DNA from: Fluviispira vulneris
GTDB taxonomy: Bacteria; Bdellovibrionota_B; Oligoflexia; Silvanigrellales; Silvanigrellaceae
Assembly (NCBI RefSeq): GCF_014281055.1
Contig: NZ_JACRSE010000003.1
Span: forward strand, 310,001 to 374,000
Direction of reading: 5' to 3'
DNA: 64,000 bases
Shown here: positions 8,359 to 32,347 of the stretch, in pieces
Layout: every line of letters starts with the position of its first letter
Position numbering within the stretch: position 1 is the first letter of the stretch
Program-made: the position numbers and the translations under genes
Notes under the pieces: model-generated
Seen by the model: only the letters and a program-made list of their open reading frames with translations
Database searches by the model: none
Told to the model about the DNA's origin: nothing

Positions 8359-8496
8359 TTTTTATATGTAGTAAATATTTCGCCGCAACTTGAAAATATG
8401 ATTAGATAGTTTTATCAGAAATAAGACTTGTTTCTTTGTTTTCGAAAGTACAAGTAGTTAAACCTAGAATTGGAAAAAACGAGGAGGATATTCAAC

Positions 8497-23113: not shown

Positions 23114-23428
23114 ATGGCTTGGGTATACTTAATAATTGCAGGTTTATTTGAAGTGGTTTGGGCTGTAGCTTTAAAAAATGTTTCTGGTTTTAGTAACATT
23201 AAAGCTTTACTGCTGACAATTATTGGAATGATAATCAGTTTTGGCTTTCTCGGATTAGCTTTAAAAGAACTTCCAATGGGAACTGCTTATGCAATTTGGA
23301 CTGGAATTGGAGCTGTTGGGGTTGCTATTTATGGGATTATTTTCTATTCCGAAACTCTAAATTTCAAAAGAATATTTTGTTTAATGTTAGTATTACTTGG
23401 AATATTTGGTCTTAAGGTTTTTAGCTAA
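23114..23428 (+). CDS. SMR transporter subunit, Gdx/SugE type (second of pair)
   Basis: A paralogue of the gene just upstream, 104 residues, with the same embedded Glu (FEVVWAVALKNVSG) and GTAYAIWTGIGAVGVAIYG. Pairing of two SMR genes usually gives antiparallel heterodimers such as EbrAB or YkkCD. Because both subunits carry the Gdx signature, guanidinium or small cationic metabolites are the likely cargo. The stop is 5 nt from the convergent MFS gene. Confidence 0.85.
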   Translation: MAWVYLIIAGLFEVVWAVALKNVSGFSNIKALLLTIIGMIISFGFLGLALKELPMGTAYAIWTGIGAVGVAIYGIIFYSETLNFKRIFCLMLVLLGIFGLKVFS

Positions 23429-23433
23429 TTCAG

Positions 23434-24636
23434 CTATTTTAAATAATAATCTTTAGCTTTTTCATAAATTCTTTTTTGATAAACAAATAATATTAATATA
23501 ATAATTATAGAACAAAAAAAACTTAAAATAATGAGCATGGCAAGCGATGAAAAATATTTCTCTAATAAATAGACGACACCCCCTGCAAGTGGAGCTGAGA
23601 TAAGGAGAATAGATGTGTTTGCTCCTAAAATATTTCCAAGTTTTTCAGCAGGAATAAGTCTCACTCTTTCGATTCGAAAAAATATTCCAAATAAAGAACT
23701 GCCTGTTATTAGCAAACCAAAAGCAAACGAAAAAAATATTATCCCTAAATCAGATGCTATAAGAATTGCACTCAGAAAAAGACTGATTGCTCCCATATAA
23801 GCAAAGAAAATTTTATTTTTATTCTGCATAATTTTAAGAATACAGAAAGCAAGTAAAAGGGAAATAATACCTCCTAGAACATTTGGCAATGTTGAGAGAG
23901 ATTCACTTGTTTGATAATGACTTCTCATAATTGGAATGAGCAGGGTTTGGAAAACTCCAAAAAATAAATTTAAGAGAATTCCTGCTAAAGTGATCAATAA
24001 AAAATATTTATTTGTGAAATGAAATTTAAAGCCAGTTAAATCTATTAATTTATTAGATAATCTTTTCAAATCTGCTTCTAAGTTCCTAATTCTTATTGTT
24101 TTAATATTTATAATAAATGTTACTATATAAATAAAAATAATTATGAAAATTGAGTTTTTGTTGTCTAGAATTGCAAGAGAAGCTCCTATAAGCATAGGCC
24201 CTAAAAGACGAGCAGCAGGTTCAAATAACTGCGATTTCGTTTGGAAGTTTATCATTTGGTTGTTATTTAAAATACGACTTGCGGTAGTTTCATAAAAGAC
24301 CATGAGAATGCCAGAGCAGACAGTTATAATCGGTGAAACAAGCCAAATATAAGGATAACTGTAAAAAATATACCATACAAACAATAATAAAATTCTTGAT
24401 GATTCAAGTGATCTTATAATCCACAGACAATTTTTTGAATCTGCAAGATTGCCAAAAAAAGGGATGAGCAAAAGTCTTGGCAAAAAGTCAAACATATAAG
24501 CAAGGCCTGCTAAAGCTAAATTCCCATTAGATATACTAAAAATAAACAGGGGTAAATAAAAGCCCTTTGCATAATCACCAATCAGGCTCACAGTTCTTAA
24601 ACTGGAGAATGAAATTAAGCTTTGCATATTTATCAT
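23434..24636 (-). CDS. MFS transporter next to the ATP-grasp enzyme
   Basis: A 400-residue polytopic protein with about 12 hydrophobic helices and the loop 2-3 motif GNLADSKN of the major facilitator superfamily (a variant of GxLaDrxGrr). It is most like the MFS_3-type single-polypeptide exporters. It lies 58 nt downstream of the ATP-grasp gene in the same direction and probably exports that enzyme's product, by analogy with dipeptide or amino-acid conjugate loci. An alternative start is the ATG at 24627. The exact cargo is unknown. Confidence 0.75.
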   Translation of the reverse strand: MINMQSLISFSSLRTVSLIGDYAKGFYLPLFIFSISNGNLALAGLAYMFDFLPRLLLIPFFGNLADSKNCLWIIRSLESSRILLLFVWYIFYSYPYIWLVSPIITVCSGILMVFYETTASRILNNNQMINFQTKSQLFEPAARLLGPMLIGASLAILDNKNSIFIIIFIYIVTFIINIKTIRIRNLEADLKRLSNKLIDLTGFKFHFTNKYFLLITLAGILLNLFFGVFQTLLIPIMRSHYQTSESLSTLPNVLGGIISLLLAFCILKIMQNKNKIFFAYMGAISLFLSAILIASDLGIIFFSFAFGLLITGSSLFGIFFRIERVRLIPAEKLGNILGANTSILLISAPLAGGVVYLLEKYFSSLAMLIILSFFCSIIIILILFVYQKRIYEKAKDYYLK

Positions 24637-24694
24637 TAACTTTACTCTGTTGCTTATGAATTAAAATAAGTCTACAAATTATATTGGACTATGC

Positions 24695-25960
24695 TTACTT
24701 ATGATAAATGATATTATAGATCTCCCAATAACAATCTTTTGCAGCTTCTTCGGAATGAGATTTAATAGTAAGATAAGCAAATGCGTCGTACCATTTTTGC
24801 GGATGGTTTAACTTTTCACCTTCAGGAACTTGCAATTGAATTTGACAGTTTGGTGGTAAGTTTAATTGACTTGAAGCGATGAGACCCTTTTTAGGTAATA
24901 ATCGTGCTATCAATGTGATTTCATTTTCATCGATATTAGGTAACAAAGGTGGATTTTTTATTTGCAGTATTTCTGCAATTAAGAATTTTTCTGGAGAATA
25001 TGTGAGAGTCTCTGTAAACATAATCATCACTTGCCCGCCGCCTATGCGACAAGCGATTTCGTTTATGAGATAGTTATTATTTCTCTTCCAAATTTCGGCA
25101 TGGAAGGCAAAACAATGCTGACTATTCCCCAATGCGTGCAATGATTTTTGGGTGATTTCCATAAGAGCTATATATTCATCTGTATTCCTTTTAACGCATA
25201 TACTGCCAGATAAAATATTCGTCGCTGTCTTAGGATCCCATGCAAGATGGGGTTTGTGACCTAGATAGCGGCTCGCAAGGGAGAAAATGATCTTGCCATC
25301 CTTAACAAAACCGTCGACATGAAACATTTCTGTGCCAATATATTCTTCAGCTATAAGGTTGAGATCTTCATCCCAATCGAGATCATTTTTAAGTGAGTCA
25401 AGATAATTTACGATATCATTTTCACAATTGAGAACTTTAAAACCTATGCCTGCTGCTTTGCATCTGGGTTTTACTATGAATGGAAAGCCTAACTCATAGC
25501 TTGCTTGTAAAAGACAAGTGGCACTTTGCACGGGTCGATATTTTGCTACTGGAATTTCCTTGTCTTTGAGCTTCTGTTTCATGTGAATTTTATCGCGATA
25601 ATTAAATATGCTTGGATAATTAAAACTTTTGTTATTATTATTTAAGCAACTGCGAGAGACGCGCAAGAGATCAAATTCTCTCAATGCAATGACATAGGCC
25701 GATGGATTTTCTTTTAAGAAAATATTTGTCTTGAATTCGACAAGTGGGTTCGAATAGAAGTTTTCAAATTTATGGATTTTTTTAAGTTTTAATTTTAAAC
25801 TAAGTGGAATAAATTCATAACATTCTTGACTGGTAAAGAGTGTTACGGCAAAATTCGATGGAATGCTTTCTAGAATTTGTGGCAGAGTTTTTGCAATCAT
25901 TTGAGGGAAATAAGTAGATTCTACCAGCAGAACTTGCATTTTTTCTTGATCTGAATTCAT
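24695..25960 (-). CDS. ATP-grasp carboxylate-amine ligase
   Basis: A 421-residue enzyme with the ATP-grasp fold: an N-terminal Rossmann-like domain, the start of the ATP-binding domain (YRDKIHMKQKLKDKEIPVA), a nucleotide-contact strand FIVKPRCKAAGIGFKVL, FHVDGFV, and the metal-binding end HAEIWKRNNNYLINEIACRIGGG with Glu, Asn and Glu ligands. The family joins a carboxylate, via acyl phosphate, to an amine or thiol. It resembles BacD/carnosine-synthase-type ligases more than peptide-modifying MdnB/C. AGGA precedes the ATG. It is divergent from the peptide cluster, so its product might be part of that cluster; unproven. Confidence 0.85.
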   Translation of the reverse strand: MNSDQEKMQVLLVESTYFPQMIAKTLPQILESIPSNFAVTLFTSQECYEFIPLSLKLKLKKIHKFENFYSNPLVEFKTNIFLKENPSAYVIALREFDLLRVSRSCLNNNNKSFNYPSIFNYRDKIHMKQKLKDKEIPVAKYRPVQSATCLLQASYELGFPFIVKPRCKAAGIGFKVLNCENDIVNYLDSLKNDLDWDEDLNLIAEEYIGTEMFHVDGFVKDGKIIFSLASRYLGHKPHLAWDPKTATNILSGSICVKRNTDEYIALMEITQKSLHALGNSQHCFAFHAEIWKRNNNYLINEIACRIGGGQVMIMFTETLTYSPEKFLIAEILQIKNPPLLPNIDENEITLIARLLPKKGLIASSQLNLPPNCQIQLQVPEGEKLNHPQKWYDAFAYLTIKSHSEEAAKDCYWEIYNIIYHK

Positions 25961-26211
25961 AATTTTTTCCTATATGCGGAGTAGGTCTTTAAAAAAAACT
26001 ACGTATAATTAATTCATAAAAATTATCTATATTAAAAAAGGAAATAATTCAAGTTTATAGTGATTTGTTGAAAGTAAGAATCAAAAAATGTATTGGATAA
26101 ATTAGAAGTGTATTTTTTTTAAATTAAAAGGGTATTGTAATTCTTTATTGAAGTTTGCGATTATGTGGTTATGGTATTAATTTATGTTTAAATATAATTT
26201 TAAAAAAAAAT
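25961..26211. other. divergent intergenic region without a gene
   Basis: Very A/T-rich DNA between the ATP-grasp gene and the candidate peptide cluster. It should contain the minus-strand promoter of the ATP-grasp/MFS pair. I see no ORF with a ribosome site, tRNA or strong repeat in this stretch; the plus-strand promoter and palindrome follow it. Confidence 0.6.
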
Positions 26212-26240
26212 TTGACAAAATTAAGAATTTAATTAATAAT
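26212..26240 (+). promoter_or_regulatory. sigma70-type promoter of the peptide cluster
   Basis: A perfect -35 TTGACA (26212-26217) is followed, after 17 nt, by AATAAT (26235-26240), one mismatch from TATAAT. Transcription would start near 26247, about 48 nt before the small peptide gene. Among the places I checked this is the best promoter in the window. Confidence 0.75.
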
Positions 26241-26246
26241 ATATTT

Positions 26247-26258
26247 ACTACCGGTAGT
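26247..26258. promoter_or_regulatory. 12-bp palindrome at the expected start site
   Basis: ACTACCGGTAGT is a perfect dyad without a spacer, positioned 6 nt after the -10 hexamer. A loop-less palindrome at +1 suits a dimeric repressor operator better than an RNA hairpin. No regulator gene is adjacent, so the protein that would bind is unknown. Confidence 0.5.
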
Positions 26259-26294
26259 TTTTTATAACCCATTAAGTTTTTTTTAGGAGTTTCA

Positions 26295-26444
26295 ATGAAA
26301 GATTTTGAAAGCAAAGAATGCCAAGCGTACATTAATAAAAATGCAATCAATTCTGATTTTGATACAACAATTGAATTCAGTGATATCCAATTAGCAGAAA
26401 TCGAAGTTTCTGACGACTTGTTACTCGCAGTTCATCGTTCTTAA
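26295..26444 (+). CDS. candidate RiPP precursor peptide (49 residues)
   Basis: A short gene with AGGAG (26285-26289) 5 nt before the ATG and a strong promoter upstream. The peptide is acidic (11 Asp/Glu, 4 Lys/Arg), has one Cys (residue 9), no signal peptide and no GG cleavage motif. Two similar blocks, IEFSDIQLA (26-34) and IEVSDDLLLA (36-45), occur in tandem, and SDDLLLAV recalls the end of many RiPP leaders. After that only HRS (47-49) remains. It sits first in the operon, separated by a stem-loop from two oxygenases and an E1-like enzyme. The precursor role is inferred from context and size. Confidence 0.65.
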   Translation: MKDFESKECQAYINKNAINSDFDTTIEFSDIQLAEIEVSDDLLLAVHRS

Positions 26445-26452
26445 ATTAAAAA

Positions 26453-26481
26453 CTCCCTAGCTATACGCAAGTGCTAGGGAG
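26453..26481 (+). promoter_or_regulatory. 9-bp stem-loop between peptide and enzyme genes
   Basis: CTCCCTAGC (26453-26461) and GCTAGGGAG (26473-26481) pair perfectly around an 11-nt loop. On the plus strand it is followed by A-rich sequence, not T's, so it is not a classical terminator for the peptide mRNA. It could stabilise or process it. On the minus strand the stem is followed by TTTTTAATTTAA, so it could stop antisense transcription. Such a barrier commonly lets a precursor be made in excess over its enzymes. Confidence 0.7.
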
Positions 26482-26509
26482 GCTAAAATAATAAAAAAAG
26501 AATAAAAAT

Positions 26510-27442
26510 ATGACTATAAATAACGGTGAATATTTTAATATTAATCAGATCTCAAAAAAAGAGTTTGAAAATATTTTCTTTGATGAACATCTTCCCCTGC
26601 TATTAAATGGTTTAAATATGGAAATGCCTGCTTATAGAAAATGGACATTTAATTTTTTCAAAGAGAATATGGGTCATTTTCTAATCCCTGTAGGTGATGA
26701 CTTAAAAAATCCTGCTGCCATTTCAAGAAAAATGTCTATTCGGAATTATATTACACAGCTTAAAGAAGATAAAGATTGCCCCTATATGGTGGGTTGGAGC
26801 TACCAAAGAGAATGCCCCACTCTCGACAATGATTTTACTTTGCCAGAGTTACATCCAGATGATTTTATCCATGGTTTGCCAAGACATCTTAACTATAGAC
26901 GTAGTTGGATTTTTTTTGGCAAAGAATCAATTGAGAGTGATTTGCATATAGATTCTTTTGCAGCAAGTGCATGGATAATAATGATCCATGGGCAGAAAAC
27001 TTTAAGAACATTTTCTCCAGTTCATAGGCATTTAGTAAAAATGGGTACATCACTTTTCGATGAGGAGAATATCAGGAAGATAAAAAATCAGGGTGTTGAA
27101 ATTATCGAATTTAAATTAATACCAGGCACTATAATGTATTTACCTGGCGGATGGGTGCACCAGATTAGAAATGACAATGACACCATTATGGTAACAGGGG
27201 CTTTTACAGCAAAAAGCCATGTCTTCCAATTTTACCCTTCTTACCAAGAAACTATTTCAAAAGATATTAATGATAGCGAAGAGCATTACCTCTCTTATAT
27301 AAAAAATGAGTTTATGAATATTGAAAAATTACCCAAGGAATCAATTCAATATATTAAAGAAGATATATTGAGAACAGAAAGGCGGATAGAAATTATTCAA
27401 GATAAAATGAAATTATATAAGAGTCTATTAAATAAAAATTAG
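26510..27442 (+). CDS. JmjC/cupin-8 Fe(II)/2-oxoglutarate oxygenase, copy 1
   Basis: A 310-residue cytoplasmic protein of the cupin-like (JmjC, Cupin_8) family. The iron triad is visible as H146-x-D148 (DLHIDS) and H217 (GGWVHQI), with K163 (GQKTLRTFSP) at the 2-oxoglutarate position. Such enzymes hydroxylate side chains; ribosomal oxygenases of this type modify Arg or His (YcfD, MINA53). A basic/acidic helical C-terminus follows the cupin core. It is the first enzyme after the peptide gene. The hydroxylase fold is well supported; the peptide as substrate is inferred. Confidence 0.85.
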   Translation: MTINNGEYFNINQISKKEFENIFFDEHLPLLLNGLNMEMPAYRKWTFNFFKENMGHFLIPVGDDLKNPAAISRKMSIRNYITQLKEDKDCPYMVGWSYQRECPTLDNDFTLPELHPDDFIHGLPRHLNYRRSWIFFGKESIESDLHIDSFAASAWIIMIHGQKTLRTFSPVHRHLVKMGTSLFDEENIRKIKNQGVEIIEFKLIPGTIMYLPGGWVHQIRNDNDTIMVTGAFTAKSHVFQFYPSYQETISKDINDSEEHYLSYIKNEFMNIEKLPKESIQYIKEDILRTERRIEIIQDKMKLYKSLLNKN

Positions 27443-27453
27443 AGGTTTATATA

Positions 27454-28836
27454 GTGAAGAATATAAATTGCTTGAAAATTGCTGTAGATGCTTTTCCATA
27501 CAAGGAAAGTATACATCAAATTTGCGACTACAGTGGAGAGCAAATATATAAAAAACAAGCACTCACCCTTTTTAAAGAGCAAAATAGAAGCATTTATAAT
27601 TTAGCAGCAAAAAGTTATTTATTAAGCAATAATTATAAAAATATCGAAATAGAAATCAAGGATAATTTATATTGGCAGAATGGGGAACAGGTATTTGCAG
27701 AGGATTTTGCCCGTTCAATAAAATTTCTTTGTAGGGATAAAGGAAATCGCTTTCGGACTCTTTTTTCAGATGTGGAAAATTTTAAAGAATATTCAATATA
27801 CATTTCAAATGATATTGGAATTCACTGCCCTGATAAATATACTTTGTGCATTAATCTGAAATATCCTAATGTATATATGCGAAATAATTTATCTTTAATC
27901 TCTACATCGCCATTACACATCTCTAATTCTCACTTGTCTGCAGGGCCTTATTTTTTGAGCTCTTTAGAAGAGAATAAGTTTTTGTTAAAGAAGAATAAGC
28001 ATTACTCATTAGACGAAGTTGCAAATTCCTTTAATGAAATAGAATTTATAAAAATAAAAGAAGATAAGTTTGCTGATAATTTTCAGTGCGGTAATATTGA
28101 TGTTAGTTGTGACACATGTTTAGACTATAATTATTATAAATTAGCAAGAAATTCGATTAATTTTAAAGAAATATCTTCAAAATTAATAATGCTACTGTCT
28201 CCTTGGAAAAAATTCAAAGAAATACCAGAAGCAGTAAAATATATTATTATTAACGCAATAAATAGGAAAGAACTCAGTGATAGGTTTGATGGCATACTTA
28301 AAGAATCATTTTCTTACCTCGATTTATATGATTATAGTTATAAAGAAAAAATAATTAAAAAGATAGAACCTTTGTGCGAACCTTTTAATTTGACAATCGC
28401 TTATGAAGATTTTTATCCCAATAAAGAAATAGTAAAACTTATTGCGAATCAACTTAAAGCATATAACATTAACTTGTTACCAGAAGTGGATGAGTATGGC
28501 AAATGGGACTCTTGCACCCATTTGCGTTTTGAAATTCGTTGGTCAATGCGTTCTACTCCTTTATTATTTTATAAATCAGATTTGAGCCGCGGCTTTATAA
28601 CAGATCAGGAATTTGAAGAAGCCAGAAAGTATTATTCTTATATACTACAAAATAATAAGGAAGAGGAGAACGTAATATTTTATAAAAAGCTAGATCAAAT
28701 ATTGATAAGAAATGCTGTGTATATTCCATTATTATCTATGCCTTCTGGCTATTTTATAAGACCATATATTGTAAATAGTTCACTATTTGATCAGGGAACT
28801 TTTATTCATTATTTGAATAATATTGAAAGCGTATAA
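27454..28836 (+). CDS. signal-less SBP_bac_5-type peptide-binding protein
   Basis: A 460-residue protein resembling family-5 extracellular solute-binding proteins (OppA, DppA, SgrR C-terminus). Residues 73-86 (YWQNGEQVFAEDFA) match the WxdGxpvtAeDvv signature. It has no signal peptide or lipobox (the N-terminus MKNINCLKIAVDAF is soluble), so it should stay in the cytoplasm. There it may bind the precursor or the product. GTG start with AGAGG upstream; it is 11 nt after the first oxygenase. SgrR-like proteins use such a domain fused to a HTH; no HTH is visible here. Confidence 0.78.
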   Translation: MKNINCLKIAVDAFPYKESIHQICDYSGEQIYKKQALTLFKEQNRSIYNLAAKSYLLSNNYKNIEIEIKDNLYWQNGEQVFAEDFARSIKFLCRDKGNRFRTLFSDVENFKEYSIYISNDIGIHCPDKYTLCINLKYPNVYMRNNLSLISTSPLHISNSHLSAGPYFLSSLEENKFLLKKNKHYSLDEVANSFNEIEFIKIKEDKFADNFQCGNIDVSCDTCLDYNYYKLARNSINFKEISSKLIMLLSPWKKFKEIPEAVKYIIINAINRKELSDRFDGILKESFSYLDLYDYSYKEKIIKKIEPLCEPFNLTIAYEDFYPNKEIVKLIANQLKAYNINLLPEVDEYGKWDSCTHLRFEIRWSMRSTPLLFYKSDLSRGFITDQEFEEARKYYSYILQNNKEEENVIFYKKLDQILIRNAVYIPLLSMPSGYFIRPYIVNSSLFDQGTFIHYLNNIESV

Positions 28837-28839
28837 TTT

Positions 28840-29808
28840 ATGTATTACCGATTGAATGGCACAATTATTTACTTGAGTGAAAATATTATAGTATATGGAC
28901 ATAAGTCTTTGTCTATTAAAGCGAGAGTTAATTTTTCAGAAATTAAACATTTTTTGGAACAAATAAAAGAAGGATTAAATGCGGATAAAATAGATGTCTA
29001 TGTAAATTGCAGCATAGTAGGGAACATAGTAAAAAAAATGTTTGAAATGTCACTTATTATTCCATACAAATTAGCATATCTAAATACCCCACTGGAAAGA
29101 TCATATGATTTCCTTTGTCACCACTTATCAGGCAAACAAACAGATATTGATTTTAATCATAATATTAACATTACAATTTTTGGTTGTGGCGGAGTAGGGG
29201 CGAATATCGCTTTAAATTTACTTGTAATGGGATTTTCAAACTTTACTTTCGTAGATTACGATACAGTTGAGGCGAGTAATCTAAATAGGCAATTTCCATT
29301 TGTCCCAGAAGATATTGGAAAGAATAAAGCCCAGGCCCTAAAAGATAATTTATTAAAAAGAAATCCATCTGCTAAAATTATGTGTTTAAATTTATTTATA
29401 AATTCTACACAAATACTCATTGATAATCTCTCCACAAGTGATCTTATAGTATCAGCGATAGATAGCCCACCAATTAAGTCAGCAATTTATTCGACAGAAT
29501 ATGCATTAGAAAAAAATATTCCTATTATATTTGGAGCTGCTGGTTATGATACTATAAAAGTTGGACCACTTTTAAAAAGTAAAGGTGCAATGAAAAATTA
29601 TCTTTCATATCTTAATTCTGTAAGTATTATAAATGCTACCCCAATTAGAGGTTCAATTCCCTCCACAAATTCTTTATTAACATCTATTTTGAGTAACGAG
29701 ATATTTAATTTATTCTATGATGAAAAAAAAATGTTATTTCCAAACAAGAAATTAATAATGAATCATTTTTCACTCGAAATAGTTGAAGAGAATGATTATG
29801 AAAATTGA
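28840..29808 (+). CDS. RRE-like domain fused to ThiF/E1 adenylating enzyme
   Basis: A 322-residue protein. Residues about 1-85 have the strand and helix pattern of a PqqD-like winged helix (VNFSEIKHFLEQIKEGL, MFEMSLII), as in RiPP recognition elements. The C-terminal part is an E1/ThiF fold: nucleotide loop GCGGVGAN (115-122), D139-x-D141, NLNRQF (147-152) with the adenylation Arg, IGKNKAQAL and SAIDSP (205-210). The zinc-binding CxxC pairs of MoeB/ThiF are not seen. MccB and PaaA (microcin C, pantocin) share this layout and adenylate a peptide C-terminus or side chain. It starts 3 nt after the previous stop. Confidence 0.82.
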   Translation: MYYRLNGTIIYLSENIIVYGHKSLSIKARVNFSEIKHFLEQIKEGLNADKIDVYVNCSIVGNIVKKMFEMSLIIPYKLAYLNTPLERSYDFLCHHLSGKQTDIDFNHNINITIFGCGGVGANIALNLLVMGFSNFTFVDYDTVEASNLNRQFPFVPEDIGKNKAQALKDNLLKRNPSAKIMCLNLFINSTQILIDNLSTSDLIVSAIDSPPIKSAIYSTEYALEKNIPIIFGAAGYDTIKVGPLLKSKGAMKNYLSYLNSVSIINATPIRGSIPSTNSLLTSILSNEIFNLFYDEKKMLFPNKKLIMNHFSLEIVEENDYEN

Positions 29809-30202
29809 AAAAAATAAAATTATAATACAATTCTATCTAAGCAGATTTTTATTAATAAATAATTATATTCGCCAACTTATACATGCTAAATATCCTAATT
29901 TAACTGCTAAAATTTGCTTAAAGTTTTTAGGAAAAGTAGTTGTCAAACAAAAAAAAGAATGGGGTGAAGTTAAGTATATTACAAATATAGTACATGAAGC
30001 TTTACATATTGATTTATTTCTGCTTCAGTTTTTAGTTCCCACGGTTCATTCTAATAACTATACGAAAGGCTCTTTTAAAAAATTGCAACATTCCACAATT
30101 GGCTGTTTTCACTCGACATTTTTTTATATTGATTCGTTTTTTTTAGGAAAAATTATTTTCAATAGGAGTAAAATTTCAAAGAAGAATTTAGTCATAAATT
30201 AA
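29798..30202 (+). CDS. small cluster protein of unknown function
   Basis: 134 residues if started at ATG 29798, which overlaps the end of the ThiF-like gene by 11 nt; TTG 29783 and ATG 29792 are alternatives. The sequence is basic and aromatic, with HEALHIDLF, then CFHSTFFYID, and no signal peptide. The His/Cys pattern made me consider a transglutaminase-like (B2) leader peptidase, but the Cys-His-Asp order of that family is not seen. It lies inside the operon, so a maturation or immunity role is possible. Not recognised. Confidence 0.55.
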   Translation: MKIEKNKIIIQFYLSRFLLINNYIRQLIHAKYPNLTAKICLKFLGKVVVKQKKEWGEVKYITNIVHEALHIDLFLLQFLVPTVHSNNYTKGSFKKLQHSTIGCFHSTFFYIDSFFLGKIIFNRSKISKKNLVIN

Positions 30203-30205
30203 ATA

Positions 30206-31036
30206 ATGGTAAAACTTATGAAAAATAATTTAATTGAATACGATTCCAAAATTGATGACATAAAATGCTTTTCCACTGAAGAATTGCAAAATTCATGTAT
30301 TGTCATTAGAAATTACTGCAAAAATTGGAAGCTCTATCACAACAATATGTTTGAATATATTGCAAACACATATGGGCATGATCGAATTAACGTTGAAACA
30401 AACATCAATGGAATTATAAATGAGACTATAAATATAAAAGAATATATAAATAGAATTGCATTAGGTATTTCAACTATAGGCAATTGGTCTTGGCAGCCAT
30501 TTTATAAGTATCCTGAACTTCACGACCAATATACATTACCAGAGAAGATGGAAGACATATTTTTCCGAAATTCACTTGTCTGTAAACTTGTTATTTCACC
30601 TTGGTTGCTGATGTCGAGTAAAGACACAAAAACAAATATTCACCAAGATATGTTTCGTGTTAATGGAATAGTCGGTCAATTAGAAGGAGAAAAGGAGTTT
30701 GTATTAGTTGAGCCATCTTTTAAACTTGAAGAAGGTAAATATTACGCTGAAGAAGAACTGCATTCATTATCTATAACATATTATAAAGTAATCCTTAAAA
30801 AAGGTGATTTTCTTTATTTCCCTACTCAGTGGTGGCACCAAGCAAAAACTTTGAAAAATTCTGTCACGTTTATTCATAGTACTGTGAATAATGCAAATAT
30901 GAAAAATTTTCTAGATGAATTGATTATTATGATGCCTAATTTTATCCAACGTGTTCAAAACGGCGCAAAACAAATGTCTTTATTTGGCAAAAATATTAAT
31001 TGGGTTTGCAATGGATTTAAAAGAATTATTGAATAA
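30206..31036 (+). CDS. JmjC/cupin-8 Fe(II)/2-oxoglutarate oxygenase, copy 2
   Basis: A 276-residue protein and distant paralogue of copy 1. Iron ligands H146-x-D148 (NIHQDMF) and H211 (WWHQAKT) and the 2-oxoglutarate Lys at 163 (GEKEFVLVEP) fall at almost the same residue numbers as in copy 1, supporting common descent. Its N-terminus differs strongly. It starts 3 nt after the previous stop without a clear Shine-Dalgarno, so translation is probably coupled. Two distinct oxygenases in one operon suggest two hydroxylation sites, or successive oxidations; this is inference. Confidence 0.84.
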   Translation: MVKLMKNNLIEYDSKIDDIKCFSTEELQNSCIVIRNYCKNWKLYHNNMFEYIANTYGHDRINVETNINGIINETINIKEYINRIALGISTIGNWSWQPFYKYPELHDQYTLPEKMEDIFFRNSLVCKLVISPWLLMSSKDTKTNIHQDMFRVNGIVGQLEGEKEFVLVEPSFKLEEGKYYAEEELHSLSITYYKVILKKGDFLYFPTQWWHQAKTLKNSVTFIHSTVNNANMKNFLDELIIMMPNFIQRVQNGAKQMSLFGKNINWVCNGFKRIIE

Positions 31037-31048
31037 AAGGAACATGAA

Positions 31049-32269
31049 GTGTTTATAAATGAAGTTAAAATTAGGGTAAAACTCTTTAAATCTCAGCCCT
31101 ACCTTTTGTTTGCACTCAGTGGAATTCTCGCTACATTTGGCAATGGATTAATATATATAACAATGTCTTGGTACGCTTATCAGAAAAATAATTCTATCGG
31201 CAGCTTGGCTCTTCTCATGTTTTATATTTGGATGCCAAGTATTATCTTTGGTCCTTTTTTTGGTGTTTGTGCTGATAGGTACAATAAAAAATATTTATTA
31301 ATTTTATCTAATGTAGTAAGAGGAATCGCTGTATTTGTATTCGCATTTTTTATGTTGAATGGTTTAGAACCAAACATTTATTACCTTGCATCTGTGCTTG
31401 GCTTTTTTATTTCCTTTTACATGCCAGCGGCAATCCCATTCGTAAAAGAAATTGTACCAGAAAATAAACTCGTTGAAGCGAATGCAACTGTAGATATGCT
31501 TTACGAGTTTGGCACAATTATTGGGATGGGAGTAAGCGGTGTCCTTATTTATTACTTAAACACTATTGGTACTCTTGCTCTTGGTGGGGCTTTTTTTATT
31601 ATTTCAGGTTTGTTTAATTACTTAATGAAATATAATCCTATAAATAATTTTAATAAATTCCAAACAAAAAAACAAACATTCTTAAATGACTATATTGATT
31701 CTTTAAAATATATTGCAAGGAATCCTTCCCTTATAGGTGTCTATCTTACACAAATGATTATTATGGTCCTGATCATGACAATCCCCATTTTGCTTGTCCC
31801 CTTTACACAAGTAGTTCTTAAAGGTGATACCGTCCTATTCGCCCGCCTAGAAGCTTTAATTTCGTTAGGTATTTTTGTTGGAGGATTCTTTTCTCCTATT
31901 TTATGCAAAAAAATAAGTGCTAAATATACCCTCATGTTTCTTACAATATTACTTTCAATCACCTTATATATATTCTCAATTAATGATAATATTCTTATAA
32001 GCTATATTGTTTATTTTGGCATAGGGGTTGGACTTTCTAGTTGGGCTGTTGTTATTAGTCAAGCACAACTCTTAACAAGTCCTGACTTTCAAGGTCGATT
32101 GCAAGCGACTTTCTATAGTTTATCAGGTATTGGAGTTTTGCTTCTTTATGTTTTAGTAAATTATAAAGGAAACCTCATTAGTGTCCAAAATTTTTATCTT
32201 GTAGAAAGTATCATTGCTGCTTGTGCGTTTATTTTTGTTTTTAAAATAAAAAATTGCGAGTTAAAATAG
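31049..32269 (+). CDS. MFS exporter of the peptide cluster
   Basis: A 406-residue polytopic protein with about 12 helices. The loop motif FFGVCADRYNKKYLL is the MFS GxxaDRxxRk signature, and MYLGxxxS-like spacing suggests the MFS_3/EntS-type exporters. GTG start with AAGG 8 nt upstream and 12 nt after copy 2. Its place at the end of the operon suggests it exports the finished peptide, which may also give self-protection. No ABC exporter or dedicated protease is present. Confidence 0.8.
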   Translation: MFINEVKIRVKLFKSQPYLLFALSGILATFGNGLIYITMSWYAYQKNNSIGSLALLMFYIWMPSIIFGPFFGVCADRYNKKYLLILSNVVRGIAVFVFAFFMLNGLEPNIYYLASVLGFFISFYMPAAIPFVKEIVPENKLVEANATVDMLYEFGTIIGMGVSGVLIYYLNTIGTLALGGAFFIISGLFNYLMKYNPINNFNKFQTKKQTFLNDYIDSLKYIARNPSLIGVYLTQMIIMVLIMTIPILLVPFTQVVLKGDTVLFARLEALISLGIFVGGFFSPILCKKISAKYTLMFLTILLSITLYIFSINDNILISYIVYFGIGVGLSSWAVVISQAQLLTSPDFQGRLQATFYSLSGIGVLLLYVLVNYKGNLISVQNFYLVESIIAACAFIFVFKIKNCELK

Positions 32270-32347
32270 TGTTAAAAGGGTTGGATATTTTGTTAAAGCT
32301 TAAAAATAAAATAAATGTATAAGGGTTTCTGAAATAATTTTAAAACA

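Follow-up and report, generated by a model that had tools for sequence, protein, structure and literature searches.

What is made by an operon in which the gene of a 49-residue peptide is followed by genes for two oxygenases, an adenylating enzyme, a binding protein and an exporter? The question is raised by positions 26212 to 32269 of a 64,000-nucleotide stretch of the Fluviispira vulneris genome (contig NZ_JACRSE010000003.1, G000:C3:310001-374000; a low-GC genome of 3.6 Mb), hereafter the window, whose positions are used for all window coordinates. An earlier reading of the letters, hereafter the original prediction, had proposed that this combination of genes makes and exports a modified peptide. 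Our analysis, in which families were assigned by Pfam and NCBIfam profile searches, leads to the same view: the operon most likely serves to produce, modify and export a small peptide, and we consider it likely to be a biosynthetic cluster for a ribosomally synthesised and post-translationally modified peptide (RiPP), of the kind built around a ThiF enzyme with a RiPP recognition element (RRE). This is supported by an RRE-ThiF enzyme resembling MccB and PaaA, by the characterised biphenomycin cluster, in which JmjC, HExxH and major facilitator superfamily (MFS) genes likewise stand together, and by an operon on a Streptomyces plasmid in which HExxH, ThiF and MFS genes lie behind an open reading frame (ORF) of 63 amino acids (aa).

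The operon and its peptide gene

Seven ORFs, all intact and all on the plus strand, make up a one-strand operon (Table 1), with the positions and the tight spacing that had been predicted; those of the ThiF protein and the small protein after it overlap by 11 nt. Scores above the Pfam gathering cut-offs were obtained for Cupin_8/JmjC_2 (two proteins), SBP_bac_5, ThiF and MFS_1, the last of which agrees with the exporter type given in the original prediction. The 49-mer matches no Pfam or NCBIfam family. Its gene is probably real, as its codon usage ranks first among the 133 ORFs of 40–60 aa when scored against 35 long window ORFs that lie outside the insertion described below. The promoter and ribosome site attributed to it were both recovered: an AGGAG stands at the right distance upstream of the start, and the promoter is one of only two 11/12 matches in the region, although promoter-like matches there are in total no more numerous than chance would give. 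Directly 3' of the ORF there is a hairpin of −17.1 kcal/mol (9 bp, z −4.3; equalled by none of 200 shuffles) that lacks a T-run and may favour the peptide mRNA over the downstream mRNA. Stem-loops follow precursor genes in peptide-antibiotic operons, for example between mccA and mccB, in a position like that of the hairpin here. The 49-mer has a single Cys, at residue 9, and contains neither Trp nor Glu-Glu (EE). No similar peptide was detected in 56 genomes of the same phylum. We infer that the 49-mer is the substrate of the enzymes encoded behind it.

Table 1. Features of the operon and of the inserted block, in window positions
Feature	Position	Strand	Remarks
Inserted block, about 8.9 kb	23422..32333		blastn/blastp of the same place in four relatives
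Divergent MFS transporter, 400 aa	23434..24636	-	pathway membership uncertain
Divergent ATP-grasp ligase, 421 aa	24695..25960	-	pathway membership uncertain
Promoter, sigma-70-like, TTGACA-17-AATAAT (11/12)	26212..26240	+	promoter scan
Ribosome site AGGAG of the peptide gene	26285..26289	+	
Candidate precursor peptide, 49 aa	26295..26444	+	C-terminal end ...VSDDLLLAVHRS; best codon score among 133 short ORFs
Hairpin, 9 bp stem, no T-run	26453..26481	+	between peptide and enzyme genes
JmjC1, JmjC/Cupin_8 oxygenase, 310 aa	26510..27442	+	nearest solved relative JMJD6
SBP_bac_5 protein without signal peptide, 460 aa	27454..28836	+	GTG start
RRE-ThiF adenylyltransferase (predicted), 322 aa	28840..29808	+	MccB/PaaA-like
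Short aKG-HExxH-like protein, 134 aa	29798..30202	+	ATG start
JmjC2, JmjC/Cupin_8 oxygenase, 276 aa	30206..31036	+	nearest solved relative MINA53
MFS exporter, 406 aa	31049..32269	+	TIGR00900-like

The enzymes of the operon

The ThiF protein appears to be an RRE-ThiF adenylyltransferase of the MccB/PaaA kind, for which adenylation of a peptide carboxylate is predicted. Among PDB sequences it matches MccB best, with a collinear alignment and an N-terminal extension of equal length, and the E1 adenylation residues (D139, D141, N147, R150, K163 and D208) do not vary in either of two alignments, one of 8 and one of 11 proteins. In an AlphaFold2 model built with ten distant relatives, residues 1–75 form three strands and three helices, in that order, ahead of the Rossmann domain, and strands followed by three helices is the order that defines RREs (PMC12710340). 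The best 24 fold matches of the model in the PDB are MccB chains, followed by PaaA, over about 340 aligned columns. Because the superposition on MccB and PaaA is loose (domain orientation) and the confidence of the N-terminus is modest, it is the topology, and not the detail, that counts as evidence for an RRE. The original prediction had described an E1/ThiF enzyme with an extra N-terminal domain, in keeping with these results, and had made the RRE-like character of that domain its own touchstone; the modelled topology favours such a character.

Both oxygenases keep the complete Fe/2-oxoglutarate site that had been read in them, H146-x-D148...H217 in JmjC1 and H146-x-D148...H211 in JmjC2, each with the Lys after HxD; the nearest relatives of JmjC1 are JMJD6 and JMJD5, and that of JmjC2 is MINA53. 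The 134-aa protein, first described as a small unknown protein, proved not to be featureless. It belongs to no Pfam family, has a weak match to TIGR04267 (α-ketoglutarate-dependent HExxH (aKG-HExxH) peptide β-hydroxylase), and aligns to the catalytic stretch of aKG-HExxH proteins of the same phylum and of Streptomyces, comprising HEALH, the stretch that follows and a downstream G-x-x-H, so that H66-E67-x-x-H70 and H105 coincide with residues of the family members. Its single-sequence structure model, with a mean predicted local distance difference test (pLDDT) score of 46, was uninformative. The protein could be an enzyme reduced to a minimum, a partner of another protein, or a relic. Within RiPP clusters, proteins of the HExxH kind either cleave the peptide backbone or hydroxylate His, Asp, Phe, Gln and Pro residues (PMC12636437, PMC13060819).

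The binding protein and the HExxH loci of the phylum

The solute-binding protein (SBP) of the operon belongs to a peptide-binding family whose members are normally located outside the cell. It scores 65.5 bits for SBP_bac_5, for a cut-off of 32.4, and its N-terminus is not hydrophobic: the maximal 13-residue hydropathy in the first 45 residues is 0.93, versus 1.6–2.7 in conventional Opp-type paralogues. The absence of a signal peptide noted by the original prediction is therefore upheld, the call for SBPs and small ORFs being one of hydropathy.

Across the phylum, HExxH and SBP genes are repeatedly found side by side. A census gave 14 HExxH matches (13 clear ones and that of the window), and in 8/14 loci an SBP_bac_5 gene is adjacent or within two genes, about 21 such genes being present in the F. 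vulneris genome. By a simple binomial the chance of this adjacency is about 1e-9 or less (2e-10 for 13 loci), a figure that assumes equal SBP density in all genomes and independent loci and is in truth larger, since some of the loci are related. A 55–108-aa ORF with a hydrophobic N-terminus lies between or before the HExxH and SBP genes in six loci (L172, L173, L175, L176, L189 and L190), and a histidine kinase gene is next door in five (L173, L176, L186, L189 and L190), in four of them in the same orientation. The SBPs of these loci have a hydrophobic N-terminus, and six form a supported clade. Descent of the window SBP from that clade was considered and found unsupported, as the protein is placed outside it, weakly nearer to ordinary Opp proteins; the parallel is consequently one of association and not of shown descent.

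The HExxH loci with noted neighbours are L172, L173, L174, L175, L176, L186, L189 and L190, two of them from F. vulneris (C5:127-130k and C2:297-299k) and the others from relatives; the neighbour in L174 is unrecognised by Pfam, and that in the other listed loci is SBP_bac_5. Two more SBP_bac_5 genes (G000:C2:302125-304516) lie within about 4–6 kb of L173. The loci with HExxH, SBP and kinase genes, in which a small secreted ORF is often present, look like an undescribed system for sensing a modified peptide. We tentatively envisage, with rather more doubt than confidence, a phylum-wide partnership of HExxH and SBP_bac_5 proteins in which a peptide would be hydroxylated, exported, captured by a dedicated SBP and reported to the adjacent histidine kinase, the operon of the window being an intracellular offshoot whose SBP would now be a cytosolic carrier or sponge for a peptide modified by ThiF and JmjC enzymes. 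A literature search found no paper that describes a cytosolic binding protein in a RiPP cluster or an HExxH–SBP locus, which is no proof of absence.

The insertion and the distribution of the operon

At this site an SMR gene abuts an acyl-CoA dehydrogenase gene in four relatives (G005, G006, G002 and G007), none of which has the block there; the closest relative, whose dehydrogenase is 96% identical, lacks it. As the flanking genes are adjacent in these genomes, the block is most simply explained as a local insertion. The inserted unit begins further left than the operon, at about 23.43 kb, so the left limit of 26212 given in the original prediction has to be moved. It thereby takes in the divergent ATP-grasp/MFS pair, homologues of which (61% and 64% identical) occur elsewhere in G005 without the operon, beside a 5-aminolevulinate synthase-like gene, which makes the pair probably a separate module. 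In that genome the pair (L069, 4723-8702) also has an Opp-type transporter near it. The mobile pair, in the window (23434-25960) as in L069, is probably a small-molecule ligase module.

Searches with JmjC1, JmjC2 and ThiF found no orthologous operon in 56–58 genomes of the phylum. Nor was the gene combination present in the plasmids searched, in the viral contigs searched with JmjC2 and SBP, or in the flanks (up to 10 kb) of the best 80 ThiF loci among genome contigs, a scan that covers these loci and is no proof of absence. The statement that no characterised cluster has this exact set of genes is in line with these results, the combination having been met in no other genome among those covered.

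Alternative explanations

Several observations weigh against a RiPP cluster. The operon contains no dedicated leader peptidase, and its SBP is at least as distant from the SBPs linked to HExxH genes as from ordinary Opp proteins. The 134-aa protein reaches 17.3 bits for TIGR04267, for a curated cut-off of 40 bits, is half-length, missing the N-terminal half of the family, and has the family Arg before the downstream His replaced. In the model of the ThiF protein the pLDDT of the RRE part is only about 46–65, and the zinc-binding cysteine pairs of MccB are lost; they are likewise lost in a ThiF protein of the same genus (G005, L022), and are probably not universal within the RRE-ThiF group. Finally, no orthologous operon in which the peptide could be seen to be conserved was found in the genomes, plasmids and viral contigs searched.

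The alternative that survives best, improbable as we hold it to be, is a decaying or patchwork cluster in which the short HExxH gene and the signal-less SBP are functionless relics. It would account for the missing N-terminal half and Arg of the former and for the divergence of the latter, but all ORFs are open, tightly spaced and coding by local codon usage, and the active sites of the JmjC and ThiF proteins are intact. Hardly better or worse placed, and to our mind slightly less probable, is a small-molecule pathway, whose ATP-grasp, JmjC and ThiF enzymes would have free amino acids or dipeptides as substrates, the 49-aa ORF being either regulatory or unconnected with it. The presence of the ATP-grasp/MFS pair on the same insertion, its weak match to dapdiamide synthase and the occurrence of a related JmjC gene beside ATP-grasp and MFS genes in a hydrazine-type cluster of a Streptomyces plasmid speak in its favour; however, an RRE-type N-terminus would have no obvious use in a ThiF enzyme with no peptide substrate, the substrates of the HExxH proteins that have been characterised are RiPP peptides (PMC12636437, PMC13060819), and the pair stands without the operon in G005.

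A microcin C-like Trojan horse, in which ThiF puts a nucleotide on the C-terminus of the peptide and the other enzymes decorate it, is a variant of the RiPP reading and not exclusive of it. MccB is the best match of the ThiF protein by both sequence and fold and the operon has an MFS exporter; we nevertheless find this variant distinctly unlikely, as the 49-aa peptide ends in Ser and not in the Asn modified by MccB, and as part of the C-terminal region of the ThiF protein is missing together with the zinc cysteines. That the peptide is a ubiquitin-like or sulfur carrier activated by an E1-like enzyme can be dismissed as highly improbable, the membership of ThiF in the E1 superfamily being outweighed by a peptide without Gly-Gly at its C-terminus and of insufficient length for a beta-grasp carrier, and by the absence of any sulfurtransferase nearby.

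A proposed pathway and its significance

If the operon is a RiPP cluster, as we favour, the 49-mer would be bound through its acidic leader by the RRE of the ThiF protein, and a carboxylate near its C-terminus would be adenylated by that enzyme. The oxygenases would hydroxylate side chains in the C-terminal segment ...SDDLLLAVHRS, where His47 and Arg48 are proposed because they are of the residue kinds modified by JmjC hydroxylases, with Asp40 and Asp41 as alternatives. Since the C-terminal half of the peptide is without Cys or Trp, a hydroxyl made by these enzymes, or else the terminal Ser of HRS, may capture the adenylate as nucleophile. The modified peptide could then be bound by the cytosolic SBP, as a carrier or a self-protection sponge, before its export by the MFS protein. 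Both the chemistry of the product and this role of the cytosolic SBP are what we infer, and, with no dedicated protease in the operon, removal of the leader would fall to a housekeeping protease.

A cluster in which a ThiF protein is joined by two JmjC enzymes and an HExxH-like protein, and whose peptide offers none of the customary Cys, Trp or Asn acceptors close to its end, would put an enzyme-made hydroxyl to the test as nucleophile for the ThiF adenylate. As part of a RiPP pathway, a cytosolic SBP would represent a carrier or self-protection protein of a new type. The recurrent loci with HExxH, SBP and histidine kinase genes suggest modified-peptide signalling in a little-studied phylum, and may prove a more general discovery than the operon itself.

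Other clusters met in the search

A second RRE-ThiF cluster is present in the same genome (L021, 4824-9904; F. vulneris C3:447.8-452.9k). It contains a short ORF on the minus strand (8380-8472), whose internal start yields MKFKVKKTPLSSAGMSNVG, and genes for an RRE-ThiF protein, an MFS protein, a haem-oxygenase-like/cupin fusion and a second MFS protein, of which a close homologue stands beside the HExxH gene of L174 in G005. The RRE-ThiF gene without zinc cysteines in G005 (L022, 7898-9979) is followed by one for a ClpA-like AAA protein. On the Acinetobacter johnsonii plasmid pXBB1-8 (L030, 4589-9184) a 67-aa ORF lies with a pair of neighbouring ThiF genes and an ABC transporter next to a BREX system. 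Relatives of the JmjC proteins on a Streptomyces plasmid and in Nostoc appear to belong to other pathways. A JmjC-like gene of the Streptomyces hirsutus plasmid (L041, 5485-16422) is grouped with ATP-grasp, MFS, tRNA-ligase-like and N-hydroxylase genes; the group resembles a hydrazine-forming pathway and is about 23 kb from the HExxH–ThiF operon of that plasmid.

Comparison with known systems

The RRE-ThiF RiPP clusters known include those of MccB (microcin C7), PaaA (pantocin), GrcB, EnfB and IndF (PMC12250964, PMC12150305), and the pantocin cluster also has a 2OG-Fe oxygenase alongside its ThiF enzyme (PMC12250964). The operon of F. vulneris shares with them an RRE-ThiF adenylyltransferase, a small peptide gene and an exporter. 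Unlike the microcin C family, whose precursors are mostly of 7 aa, it encodes a 49-aa peptide ending in Ser and no MccA-like heptapeptide with a terminal Asn; unlike pantocin, it has no Glu-Glu core such as that of PaaP. It also differs from these clusters in lacking a Cys or Trp nucleophile near the C-terminus and the zinc cysteines, and goes beyond them with two JmjC enzymes, an HExxH-like protein and an SBP.

The characterised biphenomycin (bip/bpm) cluster combines a JmjC peptide hydroxylase, an aKG-HExxH hydroxylase and an MFS exporter (PMC12707348, PMC12257519), as the operon combines JmjC, HExxH-like and MFS genes. The latter has a ThiF gene instead, with no arginase, TldD or AFHAFRF motif, and no multinuclear non-haem iron-dependent oxidase (MNIO) or B12 radical SAM enzyme, which are biphenomycin hallmarks, is among the Pfam matches of the insertion genes. 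In the operon of the S. hirsutus plasmid (63-aa ORF, HExxH, ThiF, MFS and TldD) an HExxH gene similarly stands beside ThiF and MFS genes behind a small ORF, but the HExxH protein is full-length, a TldD protease is present, and there is no JmjC or SBP. The HExxH, small secreted ORF, SBP_bac_5 and histidine kinase loci of the phylum resemble the operon in that an HExxH-type gene has an SBP_bac_5 gene and a small ORF as neighbours, and differ from it in the export signals on peptide and SBP, in the clade formed by six of their SBPs, in the lack of ThiF and JmjC and in the frequent histidine kinase. RRE-ThiF clusters and clusters with both JmjC and HExxH enzymes are known, and what is new is the union of the two in one operon with a signal-less SBP.

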